Shown here piece by piece: positions 6,684-45,279 of a stretch of 64,000 bases of DNA (positions within the stretch are counted from its first letter, which is position 1; every line of letters starts with the position of its first letter). Source of the stretch: Altererythrobacter sp. BO-6. GTDB taxonomy: Bacteria > Pseudomonadota > Alphaproteobacteria > Sphingomonadales > Sphingomonadaceae. The position numbers and the translations under genes are program-made. The DNA is taken from NCBI RefSeq assembly GCF_011047315.1, contig NZ_CP049259.1:434001-498000 (forward strand). The letters run 5' to 3'. Below the pieces are notes generated by a model. The model was not told where the DNA came from, made no database searches, and worked only from the letters and a program-made list of their open reading frames with translations.

Positions 6684-7916
6684 ATGATGGAAAACGCCGT
6701 TTCGCCCCTTGCTCACCCGTTCCCCGATGACATGCCCGATATCGCGGGGGTTACGCTGCGTGTTGCACGCGCGCGCTACAAGAATTGGGACCGTGTTGAC
6801 CTGACCTATGCCGAGCTGTGCGAGGGTACGCACGTAGCCGGCGTGTTCACTACCAGCGCCTGTGCGTCGAGCGAAGTCGAAATGGGTCGCGAGCAGGTGA
6901 AGCAAGGCATCGCCCGCGCGCTGATCGTCAACGCGGGCAATTCCAACGCTTTCACCGGCTATCGCGGGCGCGAGGCGGTAAAACAGATCGTGGACCAGGT
7001 GGCTGCGCATCTCGGCTGCGCGCCGGGCGAGGTTTTCGTGTCTTCAACCGGTGTGATCGGTGTGCCGCTGCCCAAGGACAAGGCGCTCGCCGGGGTAGCC
7101 GCCGCGCTTGAGGCCGGGCCATGCAGCTGGGAAGACGCCGCGCTCGCCATCTCCACCACGGACACCTTCGCCAAGGGGGCAAACGCCAGTGCGATGATCG
7201 GTGGCACGCGGGTGGAACTGGCGGGGATCATCAAGGGCAGCGGGATGATCGCGCCCGACATGGCGACCATGCTGGGCTATATCTTCACCGACGCCGCAGT
7301 CGAGCCAGCGTTTCTCCAGCAACTGCTGACGCAGGCCAATCGCCAGACCTTCTCCTGCATCACGGTCGATGGCGATACCTCGACCAGCGACACAGTGATG
7401 GCCTTCGCGACCGGCAAGGCTGGCAATGCGCCCTTGGCTTCGTTCGACGATCCTGGTGCAGATGCCTTTGCCGCCGCGTTGACCGATCTGTGCCGCCAAC
7501 TCGCCCAGCTAGTGGTGCGCGATGGCGAAGGCGCGAGCAAGTTCATCGCGATCCGAGTATCAGGCGCCGCTAGTGACGAAAGCGCCCACCGGATCGGCAT
7601 GGCCATCGCCAATTCGCCGCTGGTCAAGACCGCCATCGCGGGCGAAGACGCCAATTGGGGCCGCGTCGTCATGGCTGTGGGCAAGGCCGGCGAACCGGCC
7701 GATCGTGACAGACTGTCGATTGCATTCGGCGGCATCTGGACGGCTAGGAACGGCTTGCCGGTCGAAAATTATGACGAAGCGCCGGTTGCGGCGCATCTGA
7801 AGGGACAGGAAATCGATATCGCCGTGGACCTTGGCCTGGGTGAAGGCCGCGCAACCGTATGGACCTGCGATCTCACCCACGGCTATATCTCGATCAACGC
7901 GGATTATCGCTCTTGA
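6684..7916 (+). CDS. argJ: Bifunctional glutamate N-acetyltransferase / acetylglutamate synthase ArgJ
   Basis: A 410-residue ArgJ that transfers acetyl from N-acetylornithine to glutamate in the cyclic arginine pathway and may also use acetyl-CoA. The protein is made as one chain that cleaves itself. The cleavage site is visible as MATMLGY, with Thr195 as the catalytic nucleophile exposed at the start of the beta chain. Other family blocks are NAGNSNAFTG and STGVIGVPLP in the alpha chain and KFIAIRVSG and GEDANWGRVV in the beta chain. The stop TGA overlaps the TTG start of the next gene, suggesting coupled translation. Confidence 0.97.
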   Translation: MMENAVSPLAHPFPDDMPDIAGVTLRVARARYKNWDRVDLTYAELCEGTHVAGVFTTSACASSEVEMGREQVKQGIARALIVNAGNSNAFTGYRGREAVKQIVDQVAAHLGCAPGEVFVSSTGVIGVPLPKDKALAGVAAALEAGPCSWEDAALAISTTDTFAKGANASAMIGGTRVELAGIIKGSGMIAPDMATMLGYIFTDAAVEPAFLQQLLTQANRQTFSCITVDGDTSTSDTVMAFATGKAGNAPLASFDDPGADAFAAALTDLCRQLAQLVVRDGEGASKFIAIRVSGAASDESAHRIGMAIANSPLVKTAIAGEDANWGRVVMAVGKAGEPADRDRLSIAFGGIWTARNGLPVENYDEAPVAAHLKGQEIDIAVDLGLGEGRATVWTCDLTHGYISINADYRS

Positions 7917-37628: not shown

Positions 37629-38090
37629 GTGCGGGTCGGCAGGGCATCGCTGGAGGACCAACAGGTCTGCGATTTGCTCGAAGCGCATCAGCGGAACATG
37701 TATGAAATTTCGCCGCCGGGCACGTCCTTCGCGCTCGATCTGGCCGGGCTATCAGGGCCGCAGATTTCGCTGTTTGGCGCGTGGGACGGAGATGTGCTGA
37801 TCGCGGTGGGTGCGCTCAAGCGGCTGTCGCCCGAGCTTGCGGAGGTCAAGTCGATGCGCACCCATGCTGACCATCTTGGCAAGGGTGCGGCGCAGGCGGT
37901 GCTGAATTTGATCCTCGAAACCGCACGCAGCGAAGCGATCAGCCGCGTAAGCCTCGAAACCGGCACGAGCGCCGACTTCACGCCAGCAATCAGGCTTTAC
38001 CTCAAAAACGGTTTCCGGCCGGGCGAAGCCTTCGCGGATTACGCCAACGGCCCGCACAACCAGTGCTATCACCTGGAGCTGAACGGCTGA
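37629..38090 (+). CDS. GNAT family N-acetyltransferase
   Basis: A 153-residue acetyltransferase. The acetyl-CoA binding signature lies in KSMRTHADHLGKGAAQAVL (Arg/Gln-X-X-Gly-X-Gly/Ala-like), and the C-terminal part has IRLYLKNGFRPGEAFADY, typical of GNAT. It is similar to small acetyltransferases of unknown amino-group substrates. It starts with GTG at 37629, 2 bases after the cyclase stop, in the same operon; the frame is open far upstream into that gene. It ends 3 bases from the convergent pccA stop. Confidence 0.83.
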   Translation: MRVGRASLEDQQVCDLLEAHQRNMYEISPPGTSFALDLAGLSGPQISLFGAWDGDVLIAVGALKRLSPELAEVKSMRTHADHLGKGAAQAVLNLILETARSEAISRVSLETGTSADFTPAIRLYLKNGFRPGEAFADYANGPHNQCYHLELNG

Positions 38091-38093
38091 GCG

Positions 38094-40178
38094 CTATTCC
38101 AGCTCCAGGATGATCGCATCGACCGCAAGGCTTTCGCCCTCGGCTGCATTGACCTTGGCGACGACCGCCTGCTTCTCCGCGCGCAGGATGTTTTCCATCT
38201 TCATCGCTTCGACTGTGGCGAGCGGCTGGCCCGGCTGGACCTCATCGCCTTCGGCAACATGCAGCTTCACCAGCAGGCCGGGCATCGGGCAGATCAGCAG
38301 CTTGGAAAGATCGGGCGGCTCCTTTTCGAGCATCAGGCTCTCATGCCGCGCAAGCCGCAGCGGCAGCACCAGCGCGGTGTGCGCAGCGCCGCGGGTGGTC
38401 ACTCTCCACTGGTTGCCGATCCGCTCGACAATCAGGCCGAGCTTCAGGCCCTCTCCATCGGTGGCAGTGGCCTGCACCATGCCCGGGCGCCAATCACAGG
38501 TACCGGCGATGCGCATCCCGTCGACCACGGCATGGCCCTCCCCAAGAATGACCTCGAAGCGCCTGTCACCGAGCTTCACCAGCCATTCGGTGGTGACCCG
38601 CACCACGCCCTCGCGCCCATCGTCGCCGTCCAACTGGCCAGAGATGCGCCGCGCGCGGCTCTGGAGCGTGAATTCGTTGCCCGCGCACACGGCAGCCAGA
38701 AGGCGAAGCAGCTCCTCGCTGGTCGCCGCGCCGTGGAAGCCCTCGGGATATTCCTCGGCGATGAAGCCCGTGGTCAGCGCGCCACTGCGGAAGCGCGGAT
38801 GCTGCATGATCGCGCTGAGGAAATCGACATTGTGCCCCAGCCCCTTGATGCGGAACGCGTCAAGCGCATGAATCTGAAGGTCCGCCGCCTCGTCGCGCGT
38901 CTTGCCCCAGGTGATCAGCTTGGCGATCATCGGGTCATAAAACATGCTGACTTCGCCGCCTTCGTAGACACCGTCGTCCAGCCTGACATATCCGTTTCCG
39001 TTCGCATCGAGCGAAGTCGAGATGCTGGCGTCATGTGTCTCGACTGCGCTCGACACGAACGGACCTTGGTGAAACTTGGCCGGAGGCGGAGAATACTCAA
39101 CCAGACGCCCGGTCGAAGGCAGGAAGCCGCGATAGGGGTCTTCGGCATAGACGCGGTTCTCGATCGCCCAGCCATCGATGCCGATATCGTCCTGCGTCAG
39201 GCTGAGCTTCTCGCCCGCCGCGACGCGGATCATCTGCTCGACCAGATCGATCCCGGTGATCGCCTCGGTGACCGGGTGCTCCACCTGCAGGCGGGTGTTC
39301 ATTTCGAGGAAGTAGAAGCTTTCCCCCGTCGGGTCCGCCCCGCTGACAATCAGCTCGACCGTGCCTGCGCTGTAATAGCCCACCGCGCGCGCCAGCGCGA
39401 CGCACTGTTCGCCCATCGCCTTGCGCATCTTGGGGGTGACGAAGGGCGATGGCGCTTCCTCCACCACCTTCTGGTGGCGGCGCTGGATGCTGCATTCGCG
39501 CTCGTTGAGGTAGAGAATGTTGCCATGCTTATCGCCCAGGATCTGGATTTCGATATGCCGCGGGTTGAGGATGAATTTCTCGATGAAGACGCGGTCATCG
39601 CCGAAGCTGTTCAGCCCCTCGCGCTTCACGCTTTCGAAGCCTTCGCGCACGTCCTTTTCGTTGTACGCGAGGCGCATGCCCTTGCCCCCGCCGCCGGCGC
39701 TGGCCTTCATCATCACCGGATAGCCGATCTCGTTCGAGATCCGTACCGCATGCTCGGTATCCTCGATCTCGCCGACGAAGCCCGGAACGACGTTGACCCC
39801 CGCTTCCTTGGCGAGCTTCTTGGACTCGATCTTGTCGCCCATCGCGGCGATCGCGTTCACCGGCGGGCCGATGAATTCGATCCCTTCGGCCGCAAGCGCC
39901 TCGGCAAAGCTGGTGCGTTCGGACAGGAAGCCATAGCCCGGATGCACCGCTTCGGCGCCGGTCTGCTTGCACGCCGCGATGATCTTGTCCGCGATCAGAT
40001 AGCTTTCGGCGGCAGGCGAAGGGCCGATGTGCACCGCCTCGTCCGCCATCTTCACGAAAGGCGCGCGCGCATCGGCATCGGAATAGACCGCGACGGTCTG
40101 GATACCCATGCGGCGCGCGGTCTTGATGACGCGGCAGGCAATCTCGCCACGGTTGGCAATGAGGATCTTTTTGAACAT
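38094..40178 (-). CDS. pccA: Propionyl-CoA carboxylase, biotin-containing alpha subunit
   Basis: A 694-residue biotin carboxylase with biotin carrier domain. N-terminal FKKILIANRGEIACRV, ATP-grasp loop KASAGGGGKGMR, ECSIQRRHQKVVEEAPS and EMNTRLQVEHPVTEAITG are all present, and the biotinyl site is EAMKMEN with Lys660. The operon with pccB, epimerase and mutase marks it as PccA rather than a methylcrotonyl-CoA carboxylase. About residues 372-396 (VSSAVETHDASISTSLDANG) are encoded by an inserted palindromic repeat; the chain is correspondingly longer than usual. The frame stays open across it. Confidence 0.95.
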   Translation of the reverse strand: MFKKILIANRGEIACRVIKTARRMGIQTVAVYSDADARAPFVKMADEAVHIGPSPAAESYLIADKIIAACKQTGAEAVHPGYGFLSERTSFAEALAAEGIEFIGPPVNAIAAMGDKIESKKLAKEAGVNVVPGFVGEIEDTEHAVRISNEIGYPVMMKASAGGGGKGMRLAYNEKDVREGFESVKREGLNSFGDDRVFIEKFILNPRHIEIQILGDKHGNILYLNERECSIQRRHQKVVEEAPSPFVTPKMRKAMGEQCVALARAVGYYSAGTVELIVSGADPTGESFYFLEMNTRLQVEHPVTEAITGIDLVEQMIRVAAGEKLSLTQDDIGIDGWAIENRVYAEDPYRGFLPSTGRLVEYSPPPAKFHQGPFVSSAVETHDASISTSLDANGNGYVRLDDGVYEGGEVSMFYDPMIAKLITWGKTRDEAADLQIHALDAFRIKGLGHNVDFLSAIMQHPRFRSGALTTGFIAEEYPEGFHGAATSEELLRLLAAVCAGNEFTLQSRARRISGQLDGDDGREGVVRVTTEWLVKLGDRRFEVILGEGHAVVDGMRIAGTCDWRPGMVQATATDGEGLKLGLIVERIGNQWRVTTRGAAHTALVLPLRLARHESLMLEKEPPDLSKLLICPMPGLLVKLHVAEGDEVQPGQPLATVEAMKMENILRAEKQAVVAKVNAAEGESLAVDAIILELE
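38997..39063. repeat. Two-unit REP (BIME-like) palindrome inside pccA
   Basis: Two 29-base units in inverted orientation (38997-39025 and 39035-39063) flank a 9-base spacer. They match at 24 of 29 positions. Each unit alone can fold into a hairpin (CTCGAC...CGA core). Two of the differing positions change together with their pairing partners (CA/TG in one unit, TG/CA in the other), so the stem is kept. The length of the insertion and its lack of a stop keep pccA in frame. Confidence 0.85.
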
Positions 40179-40181
40179 TAG

Positions 40182-42407
40182 CTACTCCGCAACCTCATCC
40201 AAAGGCGGCATATTGTGACCGAGGAGCGTCAGGATATCCGCCGCGCATTCGACTACGTTGGAACCGGGGCCGTAAATCCCCTGCACGCCCTTTTCACGCA
40301 GGAAATCATAGTCTTGTGGCGGAATAACACCTCCCGCCGTCACCTTGATATCGGGCCGCCCGGCCTCGCGCAGCAGCTGGATCAGTTCGGGGATCAGCGT
40401 CTTGTGCCCGGCCGCGAGCGAGCTGGCGCCCACCACATCGACCTGTTTCTGCAGCGCCAGCGCGGCGGTTTCCTTGGGCGTCTGGAACAGCGGGCCAGAG
40501 ATTACGTCAAAGCCCATGTCGGCAAAGGCGCTGGCGATCACATTGGCGCCGCGATCGTGCCCATCCTGCCCCATTTTCGCGACCAGGATCCGCGGCTTGC
40601 GGCCCAGCCGCTGTTCGACCGCGGCGACGCCTTCGGTCACCTGGCGATAGCGCGCATCCTCGGCATAGGCTTGCGAATACACGCCCTTCACCGGTTGCGG
40701 CATGGTGTTGTAGCGTCCGAAGGCCGCTTCCATCGCGGCCGAGATTTCGCCCAGCGTCGCATCGTGGCGCGCCGCTTCGACCGCGCGGGCGAGCAGGTTC
40801 ACATCGCCTTTCTTTTCCATCTCTGCCAGTACCGAGGGAGGCAGCGGGATGCCGCGCTCGTCGCGCCCGGTACGCAGCGCTTCGTTGCTGATGCTCGGGT
40901 CGGCCTCGGCCGCTTCGGTCAGCGCCTTGAGCGCCGCCTGGCAGGCGGCTTCGTCGCGCGCGTCCTTCACCGCCCTGATCCGCGCGATCTGCGCCTCGCG
41001 TACCGCATGGTTGTCGATATCGAGCGTTTCGATCGGGTCTTCCTTGTCCTTGCGGTACTTGTTGACGCCGACGATCACCGTATCGCCCTTGTCGATCGCG
41101 GTCTGCTTCTGCGCCGCAGCTTCCTCGATCGCCGCCTTGGGCTTGCCGGTGCCGACATAGTCGGTCATCCCGCCTGCTGCATCGACCTCGGCCATCAGCG
41201 CCTCGGCCTCGTCCACCAGCGTCTGCGTCAGCGCCTCGATGTAGTACGAGCCGCCAAGCGGATCGACGACGTTGCAGATGCCGCTTTCCTCCTGCAGCAC
41301 CAGCTGGGTGTTGCGTGCGATGCGGGCGCTGAAATCGGTCGGCAGCGCGATCGCTTCGTCGAGCGCATTGGTGTGGAGCGACTGCGTGCCGCCCAAAGTC
41401 GCCGCCATCGCCTCGATCGTGGTGCGGATGACGTTGTTGTAAGGGTCCTGCTCCTGCAAGCTGACGCCGCTGGTCTGGCAGTGGGTGCGCAGCATCTTGC
41501 TGCGTTCCTGCTTCGCGCCCAGCCCGTCCATCACCCGGTACCACAGCGTGCGCGCGGCGCGCAGCTTCGCCACCTCCATGAAGAAGTTCATGCCGATGCC
41601 GAAGAAGAAGCTCAGGCGACCCGCAAAGGCGTCGATATCGAGTCCCGCCGCCATCGCGCGCTGGGCGTATTCCTTGCCGTCAGCAATGGTGAAGGCAAGC
41701 TCCTGCACCGCCGTCGCGCCGGCCTCGTGCATGTGATAGCCCGAGATCGAAATAGAGTTGAATTTCGGCATGTTGCGCGAGGTATATGCGATGATGTCCG
41801 AAACGATCCGCATGCTCGGCTCAGGCGGATAGATATAGGTGTTGCGGACCATGAACTCCTTGAGGATATCGTTCTGGATGGTCCCGTCGAGCTTGTCCTG
41901 GCTCACGCCCTGCCGCTCCGCCGCGACGATGAAGAACGCCAGCACCGGGATCACGGCGCCGTTCATAGTCATGCTGACGGACATCTGATCGAGCGGAATC
42001 TGGTCGAACAGGATTTCCATGTCGCGCACGGTGTCGATCGCGACGCCCGCCTTGCCGACATCGCCCACCACGCGCGGGTGATCGGAATCGTAGCCACGGT
42101 GCGTCGCAAGGTCGAAGGCGACCGAAAGGCCCTTTTGCCCCATCGCCAGATTGCGGCGATAGAATGCGTTCGATTCCTCGGCGGTCGAAAAACCCGCATA
42201 TTGCCGGATCGTCCACGGGCGCCCGGCATACATCGATGCCTTCACCCCGCGGGTGAACGGCGCGAAACCGGGCAGGCCGGGATCGGCCGCCACGTCTTCA
42301 GCCGTGTAGAGCGGCTTGATGTCGAAGCCTTCAGGCGTCGGCCAGGTCAAATCCTTGCCGCGCACTTCCTTGTCGGCGAGCGCCTTCCAGTCTTCGATAT
42401 CGGCCAT
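40182..42407 (-). CDS. scpA: Methylmalonyl-CoA mutase
   Basis: A 741-residue adenosylcobalamin-dependent mutase turning (R)-methylmalonyl-CoA into succinyl-CoA. The catalytic half has [34 protein letters not shown] and [16 protein letters not shown]. The C-terminal B12-binding domain has [10 protein letters not shown] with His617 as the lower cobalt ligand, GASSLAAGH and TAGGVIPPQ. It is a single-chain enzyme, as in E. coli Sbm. The stop is 3 bases from the pccA start. The dependence on B12 implies synthesis or uptake elsewhere. Confidence 0.97.
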
Positions 42408-42408
42408 C

Positions 42409-43194
42409 TTACTTGCCCTTGAATTCCGCCTTGCGCTTCTGGAGGAAAGCCATCCCGCCTTCCATCGCGTCTTCGCTTGCGCCTGCGATCCGTTGCCCTT
42501 CGGCTTCCGCCACCAGCACTTCCGGCAGCGCGCCGTCGAGCGCCAGCGCGATATTCTTCTTCATCGTCGCATAGGCCAGTGTCGGACCATTGGCGAGCTT
42601 GAGCGACAATGCGCGCGCCTCGTCCATCAGCGCATCGTCATCGCAGGCCTTGTAGATCAGGCCCCACGCCTCGGCCTGTTCCGCGCCGATCTTCTCGCCC
42701 AGCATCATCATGCGCGTGGCATTGGCGCGGCCGATCGCCCGGGCCAGCAGCCAGGTCGAGCCGCCATCGGGCACGAGGCCGATATTGACGAAGGCTTGCA
42801 GGAAATAGGCGCTCTTGCCCGCGATGGTGAAATCGCCCGCCAGCGCGAGGCTGCACCCGACGCCCGCCGCCGGGCCGTTCACCGCGCAGATCACCGGCAC
42901 CGGCAAGCGAAGGACATGACTGACCATCGGGTTATAGTGGTTCTGCAGCGCGCGGTGGCTGCCGCCCTTCAGTGCCAGTGCGCTCGCTTCACCCCGCGCC
43001 GAAAGGTCCGCACCCGAGCAGAAGCCCTTGCCCGCACCGGTAATCAGCACCGCCCGCGCATCGCCCAGATCATACAGCGCCGCGCCGATCTCGTCCGCCA
43101 TCGCGGGCGGCATGGCGTTGAGCCGGTCAGGCCGGTTGAGCGTGATGGTCAGCAGCGGTCCGTCGCGCTCGACCTGGATGGTTTCATAGGACAT
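42409..43194 (-). CDS. Enoyl-CoA hydratase/isomerase family protein
   Basis: A 261-residue crotonase-fold enzyme. The oxyanion hole regions are visible: [15 protein letters not shown] and [20 protein letters not shown]. The Glu normally following for hydratase activity is not clearly placed: the region reads [23 protein letters not shown], with Asp where hydratases have Glu, closer to PaaG/PaaB-type isomerases. It sits one base from the mutase start and downstream of the REP pair. It probably serves the breakdown of odd- or branched-chain acyl-CoA feeding propionyl-CoA, but the substrate is unknown. Confidence 0.88.
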
Positions 43195-43210
43195 CATTCA
43201 CTCCCTATTT

Positions 43211-43291
43211 TCGTCATCCCCGCGAAAGCGGGGATCCATTCCAAAGCCAGAAAGGCGGCAGGTTGGATTCCCGCTTTCGCGGGAATGACGA
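43211..43291. repeat. Two-unit REP palindrome between mce and the crotonase gene
   Basis: Units of 28 bases (43211-43238 and 43264-43291) in inverted orientation with a 25-base centre. They match at 26 of 28. The core GCGAAAGC with G-rich arms is a widespread proteobacterial extragenic palindrome. The two differences sit at paired positions (C-G in one unit, T-A in the other). In the mRNA the pair would form either two hairpins or one long stem within the operon. Confidence 0.9.
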
Positions 43292-43299
43292 AGAAAAAA

Positions 43300-43737
43300 T
43301 CAGTGGGCATTGCTTTTCGGCGTTTCGAGAATTTCCGTAAGCACGCCCTGCATGTCCTTGGGATGGACGAAAAAGATAGGCGTGCCGTGAGCGCCGATCC
43401 GCGTCGGGCCGAGGATGCGCTTGCCCATCGCCTCGAACTCGGCGCGCGCCGCTTCGATATCGGGCACTTCGAAGCAGAGATGGTGCTGCCCGCCAGAGGG
43501 GTTTTTCGCGAGGAAACCGCTAACGGCGGTCTCGTCATTGAGCGGCTGGATCAGCTCGATCTGAGTCCCATCCATGCCTGAATGTGTCGGAGTATCGACG
43601 AAGATGATCTTCAGCCCATCCTGCGGCACGTCAGCCTCATGGAAGCTCGTCGCGCCCATGACGTCGCGCCAATAAGCAACCGCCGCGTCCATGTCCGGCA
43701 CGACAACGCCAATGTGATTGAGCCGTCCGAGTTTCAT
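43300..43737 (-). CDS. mce: Methylmalonyl-CoA epimerase
   Basis: A 145-residue vicinal-oxygen-chelate fold protein that interconverts (S)- and (R)-methylmalonyl-CoA between PccAB and the mutase. The start LGRLNHIGVVVPD carries the first metal His, and GGQHHLCFEVPD and IFFVHPKDMQGVLTEI supply the other ligands (His and Glu). It begins 9 bases after the pccB stop. Confidence 0.95.
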   Translation of the reverse strand: MKLGRLNHIGVVVPDMDAAVAYWRDVMGATSFHEADVPQDGLKIIFVDTPTHSGMDGTQIELIQPLNDETAVSGFLAKNPSGGQHHLCFEVPDIEAARAEFEAMGKRILGPTRIGAHGTPIFFVHPKDMQGVLTEILETPKSNAH

Positions 43738-43746
43738 GCCACGCTC

Positions 43747-45279
43747 CTAAAGCGGAATATTGTCATGCTTCTTCCACGGGTTCTCTAGGCTCTTGCCGCG
43801 CAGCTTGCGAAGCCCCAGCGCGATCCGCCGCCGTGTCGAATGCGGGTAGATCACCTCGTCGATATAGCCGCGTTGCGCCGCCACGAAGGGGTTGGCGAAA
43901 CGGTCTTCATATTCGTTGGTGCGCTCGGCGATTTTGGCCGGATCGTCCTTCTCGCTGCGGAAGATGATCTCCACCGCGCCCTTCGCGCCCATTACCGCAA
44001 TCTCTGCGGTCGGCCAGGCGTAGTTCAAGTCTCCGCGCAGGTGCTTTGACGCCATCACGTCATAGGCCCCGCCATAGGCCTTGCGGGTGATCACGGTGAT
44101 CTTGGGCACGGTCGCCTCGGCATAGGCAAACAGCAGTTTTGCGCCGTGCTTGATGATGCCGCCCAGCTCCTGCGCGGTGCCGGGCAGGAAGCCGGGCACA
44201 TCGACGAAGGTCAGGATCGGGATTTCGAACGCATCGCAGAAACGTACGAAGCGCGCGGCCTTCTTGGACGAGTTGATGTCGAGCACGCCCGCTAGCACCA
44301 TCGGCTGGTTGGCGACCACGCCCACCGTGCGCCCCTCTACCCGGCCGAAGCCGCAGATGATGTTCGCCGCATGGGCCGGCTGGATCTCGAAGAAATCGCC
44401 TTCGTCCAGCACCTTGCGGATGACTTCGTGCATGTCATAGGGCTGGTTGGCGTTGTCGGGGATCAGCGTGTCGAGGCTGTCCTCCAGCCGGTCCCACGGG
44501 TCGCTGGTCGGCCGCTCGGGCACGGCTTCGCGATTCGACAGCGGCAGGTAGTCAAAGAACTGGCGCGTCGCCAGCAGCGCCTCGATATCGTTTTCGAACG
44601 CGACATCGGCGACCGAAGTCTTGGAAGTATGGGTGATCGCCCCGCCCAGTTCTTCCTGTGTCACGACCTCGTTGGTGACGGTTTTCACCACGTCAGGGCC
44701 GGTGACGAACATGTAGCTCGAATCCTTCACCATGAAGATGAAGTCGGTCATGGCGGGCGAATAAACCGCCCCGCCCGCGCACGGCCCCATGATGAGGCTG
44801 ATTTGCGGCACCACGCCGCTCGCGAGCACGTTGCGCTGGAACACCTCGGCATAGCCACCGAGGCTGGCGACGCCCTCCTGAATCCGCGCGCCGCCCGAAT
44901 CGTTCAAACCGATCACCGGCGCGCCGACCTTGAGCGCAGTGTCCATCACCTTGCAGATCTTTTCCGCATGGCGCTTGCTGAGCGAGCCGCCGAACACAGT
45001 GAAGTCCTGGCTGAAGACATAGACCAGCCGGCCGTTGATGGTGCCCGAACCGGTGACCACGCCATCGCCCGGGATGCGCTGGTCGGCCATGCCGAAATCG
45101 ACGCAATCATGCTCGACATAGCGATCGAGCTCTTCGAAGCTGCCTTCATCAAGCAGCACTTCGAGCCGCTCGCGCGCGGTCAGCTTGCCCTTGGCATGCT
45201 GCGCGGCAATCCGCTTTTCCCCACCACCAAGCGCAGCGGCGGCCCGGCGGCGTTCCATTTCGGCGATATTTGCGGACAT
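43747..45279 (-). CDS. pccB: Propionyl-CoA carboxylase beta subunit
   Basis: The 510-residue carboxyltransferase partner of PccA. Visible features are [53 protein letters not shown] and [11 protein letters not shown], the acyl-CoA and carboxybiotin pockets. Propionyl-CoA selectivity is inferred from the operon. ATG at 45279 ([12 protein letters not shown]), preceded by AAAGGGGG, is better than the TTG one codon earlier. It is the first gene of the propionate operon; 68 bases separate it from the SDR gene upstream. Confidence 0.96.

Follow-up and report, generated by a model that had tools for sequence, protein, structure and literature searches.

The pccA locus and its palindromic dimer

The window, that is, the whole stretch of 64,000 nucleotides analysed here, is part of the genome of Altererythrobacter sp. 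BO-6 (G000), which consists of a single contig of 3.04 Mb. One of its genes, pccA, encodes a product with the Pfam domains Biotin_carb_N, CPSase_L_D2, Biotin_carb_C, PCC_BT and Biotin_lipoyl, and 3n6r (PCC alpha) was the top solved-structure match of this product. The features of the locus are listed below.

38094-40178, minus strand: pccA, propionyl-CoA carboxylase alpha subunit, 694 aa, the host gene (intact open reading frame, Pfam, 3n6r match)
38985-39078, minus strand: permissive PccA loop, about residues 367-398, site of recurring palindromic inserts in relatives (inverted-repeat scan, insertions of at least 15 residues, pLDDT below 50)
38997-39063, no strand: family-A REP-like dimer, two opposed hairpin units, PccA codons 372-394 (arms, folding, kin elsewhere in the genome)
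38998-39025, plus strand: unit 1, with unpaired head CCGTTC, hairpin and variable stem pair CA/TG (sequence reading, 102-unit consensus)
39035-39062, minus strand: unit 2, with unpaired head CCGTTC, hairpin and variable stem pair TG/CA (sequence reading, 102-unit consensus)

An earlier sequence-only reading had described a REP-type dimer inserted in frame within a functional-looking pccA, adding residues from 372 on, and both points were confirmed: the 694-aa frame is intact and the insert covers codons 372-394. The inverted arms (38997-39022 and 39038-39063) showed 88% complementarity around a spacer of 15 nt. Unit 1 (28 nt) reads CCGTTC-G-CA-TCGAGCGAAGTCGAGA-TG-C and is joined to unit 2, also 28 nt, by a linker at 39026-39034. 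The stem positions had been said to differ between the units only in compensating pairs, which holds for the stem alone: two stem pairs differ and are compensated (CA/TG versus TG/CA), and one loop base differs as well. Folding of 38997-39063 gave a z-score of -5.4 as DNA and -5.8 as RNA, with 0 of 200 shuffles as good in each case. Allowing at most one mismatch, TCGAGCGNAGTCGAGA occurred at 3 sites in the window against a mean of 0.00 over 100 shuffles; two of these were the pccA pair, and the third, at 6867 with 1 mismatch, was solitary and in a different reading frame. The motif count and folding z-scores, together with the inverted-repeat scan, covariation and dispersed copies described below, ruled out a chance palindrome. 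Scanning window positions 38000-44000 against Rfam returned zero families at the gathering threshold.

As modelled by AlphaFold2 with 40 PccA sequences, the protein had a mean pLDDT of 85.0 and dropped under 50 in two stretches, model residues 369-392 and 517-522. Since the model lacks Met1, model residues 369-392 correspond to PccA 370-393, nearly the exact span of the insert, and are flanked by two strands. The insert had been placed between the biotin carboxylase lobes; it actually lies in the C-terminal portion of the biotin carboxylase (BC) domain, in a hairpin loop between model strands 360-362 and 395-401. Relatives had also been expected to run straight into DDGVYEGG, but they have other loop sequences there, of variable length.

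A dispersed family of paired hairpins

A search of the genome for the unit had been suggested, and the family proved to be dispersed. At 1 mismatch, G000 contained 20 motif matches, forming 9 dimers plus single sites at 440867 and 2815998, which lie inside other genes and look like chance sites. Judged by eye, the heads point inward in one dimer (274715) and outward in the other eight, and six of the nine dimers lie between genes. The exact pattern GAGCGNAGTCGARR gave 88 units in G030 and 117 in G069, both of the same genus, 34 in G209 and 200 in G239, both of other genera, and 0 units each in G091 and G018.

Covariation was assessed in 102 family-A units, comprising those of G000, those in 40 G030 stretches and those at the pccA loci L102, L103, L070 and L269. 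The head CCGTTC was near-invariant across this set, and the two variable stem positions were Watson-Crick paired in 100/102 and 102/102 units, while shuffle controls averaged 40.0 and 46.4 and reached at most 54 and 63, indicating that the hairpin is maintained across family A. Folding had been thought to be selected within pccA; compensated stems turned out to be a feature of the whole dispersed family, which speaks for the copying mode of the element and not for selection on folding inside this gene. Units open in all six frames made up 79 of the 102, compared with 14.7% of shuffled units and 1638/5000 random 31-mers of the window.

According to a definition quoted in PMC12306157, a REP is a short palindromic unit with a common motif, present in many copies and usually extragenic. 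Family A has such a unit (28-nt consensus) and is multicopy in G000, G030 and G069, with the pccA copy being intragenic. As for the GTAG/CGTC superfamily, whose unpaired terminal tag was looked for, the head was CCGTTC in nearly all 102 units. The Y1 transposase of RAYT-associated REPs (REPtrons), which had been named as something to look for, was not found: a Y1_Tnp (PF01797, RAYT-type) profile search of G000, the REP-rich G030 and G069 gave no match. Y1_Tnp matches were present in 7 of 100 genus genomes, G091 among them. The mode of insertion resembles that of Rickettsia palindromic elements (RPE), the copy being in frame in an intact gene of known function and absent from close relatives.

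The three in-gene dimers of G000, identified by eye, lie in pccA, in a carboxyltransferase-like gene (L010) and in ligA (L001, G000:C1 26806-29821). L010 gave an NCBIfam match under the curated cut-off, and its G030 counterpart L324 a strong Pfam Carboxyl_trans match. Compared with G030 ligA, the frame of G000 ligA shifts shortly upstream of the repeat, which is either a sequencing error or a real lesion, so that only the C-terminal part is read in the repeat's frame. In G030, the survey covered 40 stretches with 44 repeat clusters, from which 40 candidate frames were searched against Pfam; a repeat was counted only if it fell within a Pfam domain or between two domains of the same frame, and N-terminal cases were set aside. 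By this count 11 clusters were in frame in 9 genes, namely two class I tRNA synthetases, a carboxyltransferase, UvrC, CarA, TrmD and UvrA, plus GlyS and LigA with two clusters each; with pccA added, the tally of in-frame clusters rises to at least 12 of 45, spread over 10 genes, a lower bound for tolerated copies because long spurious frames are common in GC-rich DNA. Several hosts translate the repeat as PF.SSEVE...STSLDTNG, and others use other frames. The earlier proposal that REP elements in this lineage are tolerated in proteins or even create loops thus held for tolerance but not for loop creation, the variable-length loop being already there in relatives.

Flank comparison showed that 6 of the 9 G000 sites (pccA, ligA, the carboxyltransferase gene, L012, L013 and L015) are common to G030, so some copies are inherited; L003 and L006 had no counterpart in the G030 stretches compared, and the result for L008 was ambiguous. 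G030 glyS and ligA (L341, L343) each carry two separate in-frame family-A insertions. The one in the adenylation domain of G030 ligA is missing from G000 ligA, and at the second G030 ligA site the alignment was too diverged for an empty-site comparison to be read.

Palindromic inserts in one PccA loop

Three sets of PccA loci were compared. The first comprised the 80 loci nearest by protein match; the second, for the genus, 70 loci from 100 sampled genomes, with 69 loops read; the third, for the family, 148 loci from 147 genomes, taken from an even sample of 159 genomes in 91 genera, with G000 as the 148th genome and 11 genomes left out for want of a listed near-full-length PccA row. Among the family loops, 144 were read by script, 3 were printed without an end anchor and 1 was unread. 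Four inserts were seen in the genus set: family A accounted for three, counting the one in the window, and the fourth, in G091, belonged to a different family. The remaining 65 of 69 genus loops had no palindromic insert, in agreement with the expectation that close relatives lack it; these insert-free loops and the differing insert types among relatives excluded an old protein segment. The family set gave 11 complete palindromic inserts (L177, L190, L202, L208, L226, L241, L243, L246, L247, L269 and L285) and 2 partial ones (L172 and L239). Merging all sets yielded 284 distinct PccA coding sequences with 23 complete and 3 partial inserts (L059, L172 and L239 being the partial ones), every one of them in the same loop.

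Sorted by eye, the 23 complete inserts fell into nine sequence types, making about six groups: A (TCGAGCGAAGTCGAGA) with its look-alikes A2 and A3, the G-rich B and C, the CGTC-like D, and E, F and G. The types differ in sequence, length and exact position within the loop. Among the best 120 homologues listed from a protein database, 118 loops could be read, 105 of which were of a plain 55-residue type; the 13 longer ones, the window's own included, had inserts that by eye resembled types A, E and B. The same PccA loop is occupied by family E in several Erythrobacter-like proteins (P0010, P0093, P0110, P0116 and P0118); G091 has 67 units of this family and also Y1 transposase matches. The longest PccA loop (L071/L285, a 99-residue segment) contains a B-type element and further inverted repeats, as if nested one in another.

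An unsupervised scan of the 284 coding sequences for ungapped inverted repeats placed 17 of 17 hits of score at least 15 at residues 362-400; at looser cuts, 17/18 hits of score at least 14 and 19/24 of at least 13 fell there. When the loop segment was folded, 20 of the 23 complete inserts reached a z under -4, L079, L119 and L057 falling short, and 0 of 256 insert-free segments went below -3; three partial rows were in neither group, and L170 and L310 had no segment. Apart from a single sequence with such an insertion at residues 52-53, insertions of at least 15 residues relative to the core columns were confined to this loop. Furthermore, the family of the pccA insert was multicopy in 18 of the 21 host genomes tested, which covered types A, A2, B, C, D and E and the partial insert L172. 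By the patterns used, it was not multicopy in the hosts of L053 (2 matches), L079 (4) and L172 (3, a partial insert). For types B and C the reversed-pattern control nearly equalled the pattern and was uninformative, so the baseline was taken from G000 and G018, with 3 each.

The homologous segment of AccC was exactly 37 residues long in 29 of 30 loci of the same family sample, with one unread; this control consists of the 30 best-scoring loci, so the comparison leans toward regular sequences. The match to E. coli BC stopped at the PccA loop (residue 364 of the cut reference, BC 360), beside F363, which we take to be part of the BC dimer interface. Neither the alpha subunits nor the biotin-carboxylase domains of PCC are known to form an AccC-type dimer; our search for literature on the PCC dimer interface found no paper. 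An F363 mutant of E. coli BC has been crystallised (2gpw).

On a pccA tree built without the loop, 20 changes were required for the complete inserts and 22 when partial ones were included, gains and losses together, with FastTree (284 rows) and IQ-TREE (61 chosen rows) in agreement; in the IQ-TREE result, starred branches force 16 of these 22 changes. Three sister pairs carry unlike insert types (L071/L067, L077/L079 and L241/L269), which speaks for turnover. Although G000, G030 and G069 have the family-A insert and other repeat sites in common, the pccA tree does not place them together, which means that recombination or loss is part of the history of this copy. The inserts of G069 and G030 (L102 and L103) were identical over 66 nt by eye in genes that differ at 225/2082 positions, and block identities of pccA among the three genomes look mosaic. 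Loop exchange by recombination, or conversion between copies, is therefore likely in the genus, and the 66-nt identity suggests that such an exchange or conversion was recent and local. The suggested gain of the loop in one clade did not materialise, since different repeat families entered it many times, and a clean one-clade gain of family A was likewise unsupported, its three carriers being ungrouped and their blocks mosaic.

Origin of the inserts and comparison with known repeats

Taken as a whole, the earlier interpretation was partly supported. We favour, with a probability of roughly 80%, the explanation that a dispersed REP-like dimer entered a disordered PccA loop in frame, by broad insertion, selective sieving and accumulation there. 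Putatively mobile, mostly stop-free palindromes would insert widely across the genome, and the insertions would be lost from nearly all of pccA. The loop at about residues 367-398 may take some 20-50 extra residues, and inserts in it would build up and be replaced over time. The order of events would be broad insertion and then sieving, not site targeting; the loop is presumably free since the PCC biotin-carboxylase domains would lack the AccC-type dimer, and the inserts are probably nearly neutral. The PccA loop thus looks like a natural refuge in which selfish DNA can land safely. We consider it unlikely that the loop is a standing safe harbour for unrelated palindromic families, freed by loss of AccC-type dimerisation, in which the hairpins pace translation or hold the BC domains apart.

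Choice of a DNA target site by the repeats, rather than a sieve of protein tolerance, would agree with the fact that several inserts come after a native HQAPF/RQGPF stretch, part of which is encoded by the family-A start CCGTTC. Entry points differ by family, however, loops without this motif were entered as well, and other family-A copies lie in many unrelated genes and between genes, which makes such targeting improbable. Still less probable is a single old palindromic insertion in a common ancestor, followed by divergence and frequent loss. The family-A insert common to G000, G030 and G069 and the six sites common to G000 and G030 are in its favour, but the inserts vary in sequence type, in length and in where exactly they sit, the types disagree within three sister pairs, and in 18 of 21 cases the family matching the pccA insert is multicopy in that insert's own host.

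Retention of the insert for a function, either as an mRNA hairpin pacing translation of the BC domain or as a loop tuning holoenzyme assembly, is very improbable. In its favour, the predicted mRNA hairpin of the pccA insert is very stable (-46 kcal/mol), gains were repeated and many, and the G069 and G030 inserts are identical over 66 nt in genes that otherwise differ. Against this, most PccA genes lack a palindromic insert, the encoded peptides are unlike between families, sister genes differ or are insert-free, and the identity may reflect recent exchange or conversion. The idea that an ordinary protein loop just happens to be palindromic can practically be dismissed: loop length varies in insert-free relatives as well, but the dispersed copies and covariation refute it and the fold statistics also stand against it.

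The preferred explanation, a dispersed dimer sieved into one loop, draws on a kind of element that is already known from published in-frame REPs and Rickettsia elements. RPE comprise several families of about 150 bp, in frame within unrelated protein genes (Ogata 2000, 2002, as described in PMC3733652 and PMC10969869). Compared by description only, the present inserts are similar in being palindromic repeats of several families, in frame within protein genes; they differ in consisting of 28-nt units in dimers of 65-70 nt, in sphingomonads, and in that one loop of one gene is re-entered by different families. REPs in frame within genes, including DNA ligase, uvrA and tRNA synthetases, are reported in Di Nocera 2013 (PMC3733652), which also describes CGTC repeats without transposase, with hosts including E. 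litoralis (spelt lithoralis) and S. alaskensis; in that paper, REPs share roughly the same position in a single instance, recB of two Xanthomonas species, and other genes have them at different sites. Family A shares with GTAG/CGTC REPs tagged hairpins in opposed dimers, some in frame in repair and tRNA genes as in G030; those REPs lie mostly between genes, as 6 of the 9 G000 dimers do by eye. Its unpaired head CCGTTC is neither GTAG nor CGTC; D-type PccA inserts (e.g. L247) resemble CGTC repeats by eye. With RAYT-mobilised REPs and BIMEs, which lie mostly between genes, family A shares opposed hairpin dimers, the unpaired head and dispersal, the difference being that G000, G030 and G069 have no Y1_Tnp match.

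What appears to be new is that unrelated families have entered the same loop again and again, together with a structural reason for this and a comparison matched by fold. Our search of the open-licence literature found no paper on palindromic inserts in PccA or on recurrent entry of one loop, although PccA may be among the genes with intragenic REPs listed in Additional file 3 of PMC3733652. In-frame repeat inserts have so far been listed singly, while here at least 20 state changes are recorded in one enzyme loop by different families. Together with the fold-matched AccC comparison, this record opens two general questions to testing: do selfish palindromes enter proteins broadly, with protein structure then acting as the sieve, and do protein loops commonly lengthen through mobile DNA? 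The inserts also amount to a naturally occurring set of loop insertions that propionyl-CoA carboxylase tolerates.

The window also contains a second, unrelated repeat dimer, CGTCATCCCCGCGAAAGCGGGGATCCATTC...GGATTCCCGCTTTCGCGGGAATGACG, at 43212-43291, which is of the published CGTC type by eye. It sits between the ORFs 42409-43197 and 43300-43737, which, judging from their sequences, are presumably enoyl-CoA hydratase-like and methylmalonyl-CoA epimerase-like, respectively.
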